In this document: piece by piece, positions 1 to 4,800 of the stretch
Layout of the letters: each line of letters starts with the position of its first letter
How positions within the stretch are numbered: position 1 is the first letter of the stretch
From: a virus
IMG/VR virus record: IMGVR_UViG_3300032287_003012
Coordinates: 1 to 27,710 of that record
Length of the DNA stretch: 27,710 nt
Strand: one strand, 5' to 3'
The notes under the pieces: model-generated
Database searches by the model: none
Told to the model about the DNA's origin: nothing
What the model saw: only the letters and a program-made list of their open reading frames with translations
Translations under genes and position numbers: made by a program

Positions 1-1789
1 AATTCATCAGCGTGTTAAAGACCGGATCAGCACAGCGAACCCAATACACTCGCCCAGGGTGGTTTGCGTAGCCAAGTTGAAGCAGATAAACCCAAACGTT
101 GTACTGGCCCTGCGCTCCAATTGGGATTGGGTATTCCGTGCCGAACGTCATCCCGCCGTCATTCGACCACCGAAGCAGTAATTGAGGGTTGATGCCAGCC
201 GCTAGGCACGCTTGAAGCGTTGCGCCAACTTCCGTACCGGTCGCCGCGTTGCTTATCGTAACCGTCGTATTTGCAACGATGGCCGTGATGAACGAGTCAT
301 TTGGAATGTTGGCGGAGCCGGTTACTAGCTGATTAACGTAAAGTCCGGTTGTGTCGGCAACGACAATAGTGGCTGACGTGTTGGTAAGGTCACCCGTAAA
401 CGTCACGGCTGCCGTTTGCGCTCCGACGCCCCGTTGGAGTTCAAATTCAATGCGATTGTGAATGGAGCGCTTGCCCCATGTCGGCCCGTGCGGAGTGATC
501 CGGTCGCAGACGATGGGCTGAAGGATCTGGTCCCCGGTGATCGGGTCCGCGCCGCAGTCAATGTAAACGCCCTCCGCCATTTGGTAGATTGCGCCGGGGT
601 TGCCGTCGATGCCGTTGCTGCCTACAAGATGCTTTCCAAAGCAGAAAGCATGGGACACCTCAGCGCGGCCCGGTGCGATGGATACAGCATCCTGAAGGCC
701 ACCGCCCGGCGCCATGTAGCTGCGTTCCGTCCAGATCGGCTTTCCAAGCAATGCCGATGCCGTCGCGTCGTAAAGCCACGTTGCGGAGATTACGTCGTTG
801 CCAGCCGTAAGGCCAGCGTGCGGGAACGTGAATTGCACGAACTGGTGGCCCTGCCAGATATACGCAAAGCCAATAGCGTCATCAATTTGCGTGTACGACT
901 GCCACCAGCGCTCCACGCCGAAGTTGCTGATTCGTTGCGGCTGGAACGCCGCCGAGCGCCAGCACGCCCGCTGCCCTCGCGCATCCTCGCCAATCCAAAT
1001 AAGAGAATCATCAAGGGTGATAAACGCAGCCGGGGCCGCTATGCCAGTTTCGATGAACGTGGAATTGTAGCTGGCAAACGGATCGCCGCCAATACCGTTG
1101 CTACCGACGTTCTGATAAATCTGGGACCGTCGAGCGCCCATCAAGTAGATGTATTCCCGCCAGCTTTTAAGCGCCCGCAGCTTGTCGGCCTGCCCCGCGA
1201 GAATTGCCTTGTTGGCTGCGTTCCAATACTCTATTTGCCCGACTACATGATCGTCGTCGCCGCCCCATTGGAAAGCGTTCGAGTCCGGTATCACGTTGAG
1301 CGCGTAGCCGTCTTGGAAGCTGCCCGAGACGCACCCGAGGTAATCCGCGTTGCCCTGAAGGCTGACAAGCGAACCAACGCCCGCGCCGTCCGGAATGTAG
1401 TAGCCTTCTCCGCCGCCAAGCGTTCCGGCCCCAATAAAAATCTGTCCGTTACCGTTGGCGTACATGACGCAAGGCCCGCCGTCGTCTACAACGTCGCCAA
1501 TGTCGATAAATGCGCCGGCTGAATCAATCTCAAATACTTTGGACCCGTTGACGCCAAAGCAGCGCCCGCGCAGTTCCAGCAGCCCGCGGTTAGGCTGATT
1601 GAAAGGAGCAGGCACCGGCAGCGTACAGAATGGCGCGTTGCCAGGGCATGGCAGCGCCAGCATCTTAAACTTGCCTTCGGAGTCCGCCGCCTCGTTGGGC
1701 ACGAGGAACCAGTTCACCATTCGTTCAATTGCAGCTTGCGCCGACGCCAGCTGGTAACTAGGCCCAACGATTTGTGGAAAGGCTGGCAT
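1..1789 (-). CDS. P22 gp10-like tail hub / packaged-DNA stabilisation protein (partial, C-terminus off the left edge)
   Basis: The frame stays open from an ATG at 1789 to the window edge, about 596 codons. The N-terminus (MPAFPQIVGPSYQLASAQAA) and the region near the edge (LLLRWSNDGGMTFG, then GQYNVWVYLLQLG) match my memory of the P22 gp10 / Phage_stabilise family. That protein closes the portal-gp4 channel after packaging and carries the tail needle and spikes. An upstream TAA at 1790-1792 fixes the start. A later ATG at 1720 would remove the conserved N-terminus. The gene follows two gp4-like adaptors, which is the P22 order. At about residues 458-530 a beta-rich block (key stretch DSFITAIVANTTVTISNAAT) splits the usual junction between FELQRGVG and NPQLLLRW. 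The same block occurs in both gp4-like proteins. The first 76 bases are overlapped by an HNH gene. Confident on family, less on exact function. Confidence 0.8.
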   Translation of the reverse strand, partial: MPAFPQIVGPSYQLASAQAAIERMVNWFLVPNEAADSEGKFKMLALPCPGNAPFCTLPVPAPFNQPNRGLLELRGRCFGVNGSKVFEIDSAGAFIDIGDVVDDGGPCVMYANGNGQIFIGAGTLGGGEGYYIPDGAGVGSLVSLQGNADYLGCVSGSFQDGYALNVIPDSNAFQWGGDDDHVVGQIEYWNAANKAILAGQADKLRALKSWREYIYLMGARRSQIYQNVGSNGIGGDPFASYNSTFIETGIAAPAAFITLDDSLIWIGEDARGQRACWRSAAFQPQRISNFGVERWWQSYTQIDDAIGFAYIWQGHQFVQFTFPHAGLTAGNDVISATWLYDATASALLGKPIWTERSYMAPGGGLQDAVSIAPGRAEVSHAFCFGKHLVGSNGIDGNPGAIYQMAEGVYIDCGADPITGDQILQPIVCDRITPHGPTWGKRSIHNRIEFELQRGVGAQTAAVTFTGDLTNTSATIVVADTTGLYVNQLVTGSANIPNDSFITAIVANTTVTISNAATGTEVGATLQACLAAGINPQLLLRWSNDGGMTFGTEYPIPIGAQGQYNVWVYLLQLGYANHPGRVYWVRCADPVFNTLMN

Positions 1790-2400
1790 TTAACTTTGCC
1801 GCCTTGCGCGTTCCGGCAGATCCGGCAACATGGCTTTCCTTTGTGAGTCGATAGGTTTTCTGGCTTCCAGTCGTGACCGTTTTTGCAGTGAGTGCGTGGC
1901 GGCGCATCTCCGTAAATGGTATTGCGCACTCTTGGAGCTCCGACGACACGAAGCCGCGAGCATTCCCGGCAGTGGCGAGCTCCTGCTTTGCTCACCCAAG
2001 TGTTTTGAGGCGAAAACTCGTGGCCTATCTTGCAATGATTTTTTTCTGCCATTCGTTGCTTGTGAACTAAACCAGCCCGCCCGCGTTTGGCATTCTCTTT
2101 TCTCGTCACTGGTTCGAGATGATTGGGGTTCACGCATTTCCGATGGGCACAACTCTTGCCCCCATTGCATGACAGGTCTTTTGAATGGCATACGTGATCG
2201 AGCTCCAACCCATTCTGAACTGGGCCGACAAATGCCTCGAATGAATACCGATGTGCTCGGTGTAACTTCCCCCGCACCATGACTTGGCCATAACCCTGCC
2301 TGTCCAAGCTGGCTGACCAATGCCAGCAGCCCGTGAGCTCGTCCACGCAAATGTGAGCAAGTATTCGTTGTTGCGGCGTAGCGTTTCTGCTGGACTTCAT
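1714..2400 (-). CDS. Free-standing HNH homing endonuclease with two zinc-finger-like C-terminal modules
   Basis: This 228-residue protein has an HNH core of the HNH_3 type. GCWHWSASLDRQGYGQV is followed by LELDHVC (catalytic histidine region) and CVNPNHLEPVTRKEN. Between LDH and CVNPNH sits an extra Cys/His loop (SCNGGKSCAHRKC) that the second HNH of this window lacks. Two downstream modules of the form HCKxGH...C-x2-C (about residues 122-148 and 168-195) probably bind zinc and contact DNA. Family knowledge: such enzymes nick DNA at insertion sites and spread into related phages. The gene starts 22 bases after the gp4-like B stop without a clear Shine-Dalgarno. Its last 25 codons run into the gp10-like gene in another frame. 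It is not a virion gene despite its position. Confidence 0.85.
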   Translation of the reverse strand: MKSSRNATPQQRILAHICVDELTGCWHWSASLDRQGYGQVMVRGKLHRAHRYSFEAFVGPVQNGLELDHVCHSKDLSCNGGKSCAHRKCVNPNHLEPVTRKENAKRGRAGLVHKQRMAEKNHCKIGHEFSPQNTWVSKAGARHCRECSRLRVVGAPRVRNTIYGDAPPRTHCKNGHDWKPENLSTHKGKPCCRICRNAQGGKVKCQPFHKSLGLVTSWRRRKLQLNEW

Positions 2401-2410
2401 TCTTTAATTG

Positions 2411-2425
2411 TAGCATAGTATGCTA
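2411..2425. repeat. 15-base palindrome between gp4-like B and the HNH gene
   Basis: TAGCATA-G-TATGCTA is a perfect inverted repeat with 7-base arms and one central base. It contains the stop codon of gp4-like B and lies just upstream of the HNH start. It could be an operator, a processing stem, or a trace of the endonuclease insertion. The sequence alone does not decide. Confidence 0.4.
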
Positions 2426-3403
2426 GTATGGAGACCCTGTGAGCAAAAGTCCCCAGTCACATACAGCCCGCGTTGATTTCAGCGAACCGCCAAAGTCGTT
2501 ACGCATCCGAGGCGATGGCGCATTGACGGCCTGAACCGCCGCCCGAGCCTTTGCCGCCTGTCCGCAGATGAACTGAAACGGCAGCTTGTTCACAAACACA
2601 CTGTTCGTGGCAAGCGGCCAAAGTTCCCGCGCAAGGTTCCAAATGACAACTTCGGCATACCCTGGGGGCGCTGAATACGTCTGGGTCAAGCTGGTGGGTG
2701 GCGTCAGAAATCCCCATGTGAAGATTTCAAGCGAGTTGCCATTAAGCGGGGGGAACACGTTAATGACTCCCTGCGGAAACTGCGGGTCGTAATAGAACGA
2801 GGTCGCAACGTTAATGGCATTAAACTGCACCACCGGAATACGCGCCCATTCTTCCGCGCTCATCGGTGAAAGCGGAATGCGTGTTGGCTGCGTCGGGTTG
2901 GCGCTCGTCAGCAGCAAATTCATGCGAATGATTGACTCTGGACGCGGTCCCGTAAAGGACGCCACTACCGTGCCGGTAATCGGTCCGCTGGTCGTTGCGG
3001 CTGCGCTTAGTGTGATGCTGGTATCAATGCTGATGCCCTGAATGGTGGTCAATGCAGGGATTCCGCTGCCCGTGATGCTTTGCCCGATGTTCAGCCCTGC
3101 CGTGTTGGTGCACAACGCGGTAACGGAAGTTTGCAGCGTCAGGGCAACTGTGAAGGTCGGTCCGATGCTGAACTGGACGTTTTGACCATAGATCCCATCA
3201 AGGCTAGTTGAGGTGGAAACTGGGTAAACATAGTCTGGGATGCTGAAAGCGTTGGTCCGTTTGGCATTATAACCATCATAGATAACCTTCCAGGCATCCA
3301 GCCCATCGTTTAGCAGGTCGGCCCCTGCAGTGGCCCCTGGGCGAAGCTGCCCGCACCGGCGAAAAGCCTGGTAAATGTAGTCGCCGCACGTTACAAGTGC
3401 CAT
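2423..3403 (-). CDS. P22 gp4-like tail adaptor / head-completion protein, copy B
   Basis: This 326-residue protein opens with a helical N-terminus (MALVTCGDYIYQAFRRCGQL) and a segment ending NDGLDAWKVIYDGYNAKR. This is the pattern of gp4-type tail accessory factors, which bind the portal ring and extend the channel to gp10. The C-terminal part (SFYYDPQFPQGVINVFPP, then YAEVVIWNLARELWP) fits the same family. Residues about 84-152 hold the beta-rich insert shared with its two neighbours (NIGQSITGSGIPALTTI, then ITLSAAATTSG). Here the insert lies before the RPESI motif. The start ATG shares its A with the TAA of copy A, so the two are translationally coupled. Copies A and B are adjacent paralogues, and P22 itself has one gp4. 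They may form mixed or stacked rings. Confidence 0.7.
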   Translation of the reverse strand: MALVTCGDYIYQAFRRCGQLRPGATAGADLLNDGLDAWKVIYDGYNAKRTNAFSIPDYVYPVSTSTSLDGIYGQNVQFSIGPTFTVALTLQTSVTALCTNTAGLNIGQSITGSGIPALTTIQGISIDTSITLSAAATTSGPITGTVVASFTGPRPESIIRMNLLLTSANPTQPTRIPLSPMSAEEWARIPVVQFNAINVATSFYYDPQFPQGVINVFPPLNGNSLEIFTWGFLTPPTSLTQTYSAPPGYAEVVIWNLARELWPLATNSVFVNKLPFQFICGQAAKARAAVQAVNAPSPRMRNDFGGSLKSTRAVCDWGLLLTGSPY

Positions 3404-4323
3404 TAGGCACCCGCCACTGGCTGGCTACCGGGAGCAGCCACCATTTGCGGAGGCATCTGTCGATTAAATGAGTTCGTTGCCCGCAACCTTGCTTCGGACT
3501 TCTGCCCTTCAGCAGCCACAATTTGCGCCACCTGCGGCATAACGGCCACGCCAAACGTCGAGAGCAACCGAAACGCGGTGGCCCATTCGATAGCATCCTG
3601 AACCGACGGCGGAATGTTGTAGTTTGTCGCCAACGCCCAAGTGCTGAAGTTGACGGCCATGTCCAGTTCGAGCGCCACAGGTGCCGTGCTGGGAACCGGG
3701 AACAGATACAGATTCATCGTGCCGGTGCTTCCGCTGCTGAGATAGTCCGGGTAAATTTCGTCTGGTGTCCGCGCCGTAGCACCTAAATCGTTGTGGTCGT
3801 AGTACTTGCCAGCTTCCACAATCCTTATTTCATTGCGGTTGCCGGTCGTGGCGTAGATGGTCCCAGTTAACGTTGCCGTGGCTGTAGCCGCGTTGCTGAT
3901 AGTGGCCGAGGTATTGGTAACGATGGCTGTGATAAAGCTGTTTGCGGGGATGCCTGCTCCAATGACCTGCTGACCCAATGCAAGGTTTGCCGTCGCCGGG
4001 ATGCTGGTGAGCACCTTGCTTCCGCTGGTGGTTGTCGCCGTGAACGCCACCGTACCGAGCGCAAACGCCTTGTAAATCCGCGCCGGTCGGCTGGTAGCAA
4101 AGTCTCCACCGCTTCCGATGGAGTAGACGGCTTGCCCAGCGTTAAGCGCGGCCTGATACGTTTCCTGCCCCCAGATCAGCCCCTCGTCAACGCTCCACGC
4201 ATTCCACATCACATTCAACACGTTGAGAACGGTATTTGAATCGGAAGCGCCAGCCGAACCATCCGGGGGATTTAGCCCCAAGTGGCTCATGATGTTGTTT
4301 GCGAGTTGTTGTCCAGATGGCAT
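3403..4323 (-). CDS. P22 gp4-like tail adaptor / head-completion protein, copy A
   Basis: This 306-residue protein has an N-terminus (MPSGQQLANNIMSHLGLNPP, then NVLNVMWNAWSVDEGLIWGQ) typical of gp4-like adaptors, with a loop carrying YSIGSGGDFATSRPARIYKA. Residues about 91-160 are the shared beta-rich insert (LGQQVIGAGIPANSFITAIV, then ATISNAATATATLTG), placed here after the RPARI motif. The C-terminal half (MNLYLFPVPSTAPVALELDM, then IPPSVQDAIEWATAFRL) is the usual adaptor fold. The start ATG directly follows the TAA of the second HNH gene. A GGAAG inside the end of that HNH gene can serve as its Shine-Dalgarno, so the HNH insertion kept translation possible. The assigned role, joining portal to tail hub, is inferred from family and gene order. 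Confidence 0.72.
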   Translation of the reverse strand: MPSGQQLANNIMSHLGLNPPDGSAGASDSNTVLNVLNVMWNAWSVDEGLIWGQETYQAALNAGQAVYSIGSGGDFATSRPARIYKAFALGTVAFTATTTSGSKVLTSIPATANLALGQQVIGAGIPANSFITAIVTNTSATISNAATATATLTGTIYATTGNRNEIRIVEAGKYYDHNDLGATARTPDEIYPDYLSSGSTGTMNLYLFPVPSTAPVALELDMAVNFSTWALATNYNIPPSVQDAIEWATAFRLLSTFGVAVMPQVAQIVAAEGQKSEARLRATNSFNRQMPPQMVAAPGSQPVAGA

Positions 4324-4800
4324 TTATTTCTTCCAGGCTTTGCGGGTTGCGCAAGACACTCTATTGCATTCGCGGCACTCTCGGGAATCCGCCCGGTTGG
4401 GGTGACGGTGCGTCAATGTGTTGCCAGTAGTGTATTCATGCCCCCGAGGGCAGTGTGTGATTTTAGACTTTGCGCAATTTATCTTGCGGTCAATTTTAGG
4501 CGCTGCACCGCGCAGGCAGTTTTCGCGATGCGTAACGGGTTCCATGTGGTCTGGATTGACACAATCACGATTTCGGCACAGGTGGTCAAGCTCTAAGCCG
4601 TGCTGGTGCTCTCCATGGAACAGAGAAAACGACACGCGATGCGCAAGTTGGCTTTTCAGCCTAACGCTAAGCATCCCGTACCCGTTCGGATTTTTGGCTG
4701 AAGTCCAGATCCAGCATGGTGTCCCGTTCCATTCTTTACCTGTCGAGGCGTCTATCTTTCGCAAAAACCGCTCAAATACGCTACCCTTTACGTAAGCCAT
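4324..4800 (-). CDS. Free-standing HNH homing endonuclease with one zinc-finger-like module
   Basis: This 158-residue HNH_3-type protein has CWIWTSAKNPNGYGMLSV, then LAHRVSF, GLELDHLCRNRDCVNPDH and MEPVTHREN. LDH and NPDH carry the expected catalytic and metal-binding histidines. A C-terminal module (HCPRGHEYTTGNTLTHR, then ECREC) is the same type as the two in the other HNH protein. Residue conservation between the two is clear but they are not recent copies: the LDH-to-CVNP loop is short here. The start has a near-perfect Shine-Dalgarno (AGGAGG, 6 bases before ATG). A strong hairpin at 4829-4860 separates it from the preceding virion gene. It sits between the coiled-coil protein and the first gp4-like adaptor. 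Confidence 0.87.
   Translation of the reverse strand: MAYVKGSVFERFLRKIDASTGKEWNGTPCWIWTSAKNPNGYGMLSVRLKSQLAHRVSFSLFHGEHQHGLELDHLCRNRDCVNPDHMEPVTHRENCLRGAAPKIDRKINCAKSKITHCPRGHEYTTGNTLTHRHPNRADSRECRECNRVSCATRKAWKK

Follow-up and report, generated by a model that had tools for sequence, protein, structure and literature searches.

Copies of one small beta domain inserted into three neighbouring neck proteins in a P22-like podophage

The neck genes and the block they share

The window analysed here is the whole 27,710-nucleotide stretch of a virus contig (IMG/VR record IMGVR_UViG_3300032287_003012). It carries a P22-like structural cassette on the minus strand, consisting of terminase, portal, scaffold, coat, two gp4/adaptor-like proteins (A and B) and a gp10-like protein. 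Pfam scans of the window identified the portal (PF16510, E 2e-109) and a P22-type coat protein (PF11651). The gene for the gp10-like head closure or nozzle protein (P0001, 2..1789, minus strand) is open at its 3' end, where it meets the window edge; the genes for B (P0002, 2423..3403, minus strand) and A (P0003, 3403..4323, minus strand) lie next to it. Two HNH endonuclease ORFs (PF13392), also on the minus strand (1714-2400 and 4324-4800), adjoin these genes and are possibly mobile genes which promote local recombination. The spacing of the neck genes varies among relatives: L004 lacks the gap that separates B from gp10, and about 500 extra bases separate A from B in L006 and L009.

The gp10-like protein belongs to the PHROG head closure family Hc3 (phrog_578, E 1.9e-53), with Pfam PF11134 matching below cut-off only, and its predicted structure superposes on P22 gp10 over 445 residues (Z 33.7, 2.8 Å). 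The family phrog_12985 is matched by both A and B, and their homology is also found with an iterated profile. The structure of A, predicted without templates, resembles the adaptors of cyanophage A4 (Foldseek E 2.5e-6), P22 (gp4; Z 12.7, ~110 residues) and T7 (gp11; Z 10.0).

Each of the three proteins contains a block of 66-68 residues. In gp10 it occupies residues 462-529 (203..406, minus strand), as placed by coordinates and profile match. The B block comprises residues 86-151 (2951..3148, minus strand) and lies between FSIGP and GPRPESI, while that of A comprises residues 92-159 (3847..4050, minus strand) in the hairpin RPARIYKAF / GNRNEIRIVEAG. When the A block was used as the sole query of the window, it matched only gp10 (51% identity, E 5e-8) and B (42%, E 2e-7), and pairwise protein alignments of the blocks scored 6.4 to 11.5 SD over shuffled sequences. 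A profile of the block family matched these three window ORFs and no others (E 1e-22 to 2e-20), with a bias of 30 that reflects an Ala/Thr/Ser-rich composition, which inflates weak matches. The preliminary description of this DNA had noticed the shared pattern; window search, shuffles and family profile all bear it out, and the three blocks are homologous. The similarity of the B block to those of A and gp10 is found at the protein level only, not in the DNA.

In the model of A, the block forms a separate small domain (residues 91-159) beside the adaptor core. The corresponding region of the gp10 model (residues 456-532) has pLDDT under 50 and falls outside the match to P22 gp10; this low confidence reflects the few sequences that cover the block, in part because the block-only rows in the gp10 alignment failed to align to it. 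The block is thus outside the predicted core fold in both proteins, rather than integral to it. As the core folds close without the block, it would not be needed for ring assembly, and it is probably dispensable for building the rings.

Presence, absence and replacement at the three sites

Homologues lacking the block were found at all three sites, showing that the block is an insertion into otherwise continuous, known neck proteins. The best evidence for insertion and exchange comes from gp10. P22 gp10 and the gp10 proteins of L009 and L138-L147 lack the block, and the junction which the preliminary description gave as continuous in homologues is indeed so, reading FELARGVG-VSASGTATPNPGEN-PMLLLRW in L009 and EMSRGVG-LDGAQFGAN-PQILIRW in L138. 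Across the viral contigs, 5/82 homologous gp10 ORFs (some of them partial) contain the block, all five in the clade of the window's phage.

Among near relatives whose flanks are 82-94% identical in DNA, this site may have the window's block, a highly divergent version or no block at all. L004, L005 and L006 have the same block, with 91-100% DNA identity to the window copy (gp10 residues 457-534). In L007 the flanks are 86% and 92% identical in DNA, but the block between them is divergent (36% identity in amino acids, 45% in DNA), and L009 has the short linker VSASGTATPNPGEN and no block between flanks of 85% and 82%; the surveyed relatives are metagenomic contigs, which may be chimaeric, and these last two states are each represented by one contig. 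Judged by these sequence comparisons, the gp10 block is one that has been gained, lost or replaced recently among near relatives.

The same junction shows other changes in more distant gp10 proteins. Marine-type homologues (L149-L208) carry short insertions of their own there, with the pattern LLLTEDGD-LVTESGD. In L145 (3872-5599) and L141 (3989-5548), the two halves of the C-terminal region of gp10 are in swapped order, in the manner of a circular permutation, and the swap junction is the loop which holds the block in the window. The L008 contig stops where the gp10 block would start, as is expected if the population varies at that point.

The site in A is also variable. The A proteins of L051, L053, L054 and L055 (240-248 residues) are continuous across it, more distant homologues are also free of the block, and the block is present in A of L061/L118 (68% identity). 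In A of L052 (1306-2310) and L122 (3998-4996), a different, glycine-rich module occupies the site of the block. This second module is also found in gp10 of L055 (6431-8251) and L054 (5995-7806), at a site other than the block's; the copies in A of L052/L122 and gp10 of L055 are 42-50% identical (E 1e-12 to 4e-23). The block profile did not match the second module, and by sequence the two are unrelated. The occurrence of the second module both at the A site and in gp10 shows that neck loops accept more than one module.

The B block is found in every relative recovered at 57-99% identity, and L146 has two copies of it in B. Homologues of B from L121, L129, L144 and L145 are free of it. The block at this site may by now be fixed and functional. 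Its conservation in all relatives down to ~57% identity could be read as a sign of an ancient, integral block that most homologues have lost and that looks inserted only because of sequence drift. We consider this very improbable. P22 gp10 and gp4 and most other homologues have no block, the A site holds an unrelated module instead in some relatives, and A and B, homologous proteins of probably the same fold, take the block in two distinct loops (following RPARIYKAF in A, preceding GPRPESI in B). For A and gp10 such a history is already contradicted. The different loops in homologous proteins further argue for separate insertions in A and B, as opposed to inheritance through an A/B duplication.

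Relatives of the block and the course of its spread

Searching the PDB with the block profile returned one match with E below 0.1: residues 12-73 of 8eci_1 (E 8e-4 with 8 seeds, 4e-5 with 18). This chain is gp7, a capsid decoration protein from Arthrobacter phage Bridgette, and its gene adjoins the capsid gene. Residues 91-159 of the A model superpose on 8eci_1 9-75 with Z 8.8 and an rmsd of 1.7 Å (66 residues, 36% identity; Bridgette gp7 is thus similar by both profile and superposition). Further structural matches of the block region, to a tail tube (9n71, Z 7.5), a tailspike (6e0v, Z 6.8) and a tail tip (8vjh, Z 6.5), may reflect only a common arrangement. The block appears to be an autonomous small beta domain of the capsid-decoration-protein kind. 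Scans of Pfam and NCBIfam gave no model for it (matches to PmbA and SH3DP were weak), and none of 8 block members matched a Pfam Ig-like family.

A tblastn search of cultured phages with the A block found nothing, and a consensus-like B block matched a few fibre and virion proteins. Since the 8-row block alignment was too diverse to give patterns for searching the contigs, one consensus-like block was used there instead. The domain also occurs in fibre/collar proteins and other virion structural proteins, with two tandem copies in L060, and in tandem in PATR-repeat surface-type proteins of Verrucomicrobia. Giant Verrucomicrobia ORFs with PATR/autotransporter repeats contain ~10 copies (L107:1-6195) and ~8 copies (L109:1-6150). 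In virion proteins of phrog_2941 (L065, L069, L073, L095, L105), the block follows a PLDYLSTYSLAIY strand. We make no claim for these phrog_2941 proteins as adaptors, as profiles did not link them to A or gp10 and the match of their N-terminal part to the SU10 adaptor was weak (E 0.004). Profile comparison likewise gave no link between the block-bearing phrog_3287 proteins (L020 group) and A or gp10. The block is a widespread phage domain, not unique to the window's phage. This single domain, to which the Pfam and NCBIfam scans gave no name, connects tail fibres and neck proteins with a capsid decoration protein and with surface-type repeats of bacteria.

This distribution bears on how the block reached three neighbouring genes. 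The preliminary description had counted 40 matching bases of 50 between the gp10 and A copies (243-292 versus 3887-3936), which is exact, and concluded that copying between them was not ancient. A recent duplication or gene conversion within one genome, from A (or B) to gp10, would account for this local match, for a DNA similarity between the A and gp10 blocks that exceeds all 1000 codon shuffles, and for a degenerate DNA pattern of the stretch that is confined, among viral contigs, to the clade of the window's phage. However, the two proteins are only ~51% identical over the block, the gp10 block scores higher with the B blocks of other phages (63, 60 and 57 bits with L053-L055) than with its own A block (46 bits), and the gp10 block of L007 is distant from every copy in L007. 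The block tree leaves most of its branching without resolution, so we claim no direction of copying. We regard spread within one genome as unlikely. Because the block is widespread in phages, acquisition of the gp10 block independently of A is as likely as seeding between A and gp10. The earlier view of a mobile module being spread among neck proteins thus stands for a separable insert in three proteins and for recent gain, loss or replacement at gp10; recent seeding from A to gp10, or the reverse, is at most a possibility.

A proposed variable neck surface and its known parallels

The reading we favour, with a probability of about 0.72, is that surface loops in three P22-like podophage neck proteins each took up, in separate events, an autonomous decoration-type beta domain. 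Such a domain would enter loops of the two gp4/adaptor-type proteins and of the gp10 nozzle independently, and homologous recombination in the conserved flanks would then replace it; phages seem to swap the block freely as an accessory part. Its kinship with a decoration protein and its insertion in hairpins make it plausible that the block projects from the neck surface. This exterior placement follows by analogy with the dock loops and nozzle Ig-like domains of SU10 and with the Bridgette decoration protein.

In P22 and SU10, the adaptor ring has 12 subunits and the nozzle ring 6. On these numbers, up to ~30 copies of the block would be displayed on the neck exterior, where they might bridge neighbouring subunits, with a cementing effect, or weakly bind polymers of the host surface or the environment. 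A more specific proposal is that the block is an adhesion domain comparable to those in the neck passage structures of lactococcal phages: it would be selected for variation and let the neck bind weakly to polysaccharide or the host envelope. It is a special case of the function within our preferred reading, with the same anatomy. Fast replacement at the gp10 site is consistent with it, as are the domain's presence in tail fibre/collar proteins, its tandem copies in PATR-repeat surface-type proteins of bacteria, and the exchange of domains already known from neck passage proteins (PMC10684548). The sole relative of solved structure, however, is a decoration protein of the capsid and is described as a bridge between hexons around the penton (PMC13033339), and we hold adhesion to be possible, leaning somewhat against it. 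More tentative still is a broader proposal in which the neck of podophages in this group would be a modular platform, with at least two unrelated beta modules inserted, replaced and removed at several adaptor and nozzle loops by ongoing recombination; each virion would then have a variable collar by which attachment or stability is tuned.

Neck and nozzle rings are usually regarded as conserved assembly parts. Here the same decoration-type domain lies in three adjacent neck proteins, and at one of these sites near relatives have it, lack it or have replaced it. On this basis it can be tested directly whether modules of this kind serve as cement or as adhesins, or are neutral passengers.

The individual features of the locus have parallels in known systems. 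P22 gp10 and gp4 share the core folds, in a cassette with a similar coat and portal, but the P22 proteins have no block, and the window's phage has two gp4-like genes. Bridgette gp7 has the same small beta domain as a separate protein placed on the capsid, whereas the three neck proteins of the window contain the domain internally and hence do not count as decoration proteins of the capsid. The Ig-like domains found as insertions in structural proteins of phages (Fraser et al. 2006, as cited in PMC10684548) are likewise promiscuous accessory beta domains, which some virion proteins have and others lack; the block matches no Pfam Ig model. The domain exchange documented for neck passage structures by Smug et al. 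2023 (PMC10684548) is likewise recent swapping in a neck component of close relatives; there the exchanged domains are C-terminal and receptor-binding, while the block lies in internal loops of adaptor and nozzle. SU10 is similar in architecture, with dock loops that project radially from the adaptor and with Ig-like domains as insertions in its nozzle protein (PMC9509320); unlike the block, these nozzle domains serve to build the nozzle itself, from a position between blades 2 and 3 of the propeller. The present case extends known phage domain shuffling, and insertions inside adaptor and nozzle proteins set it apart.
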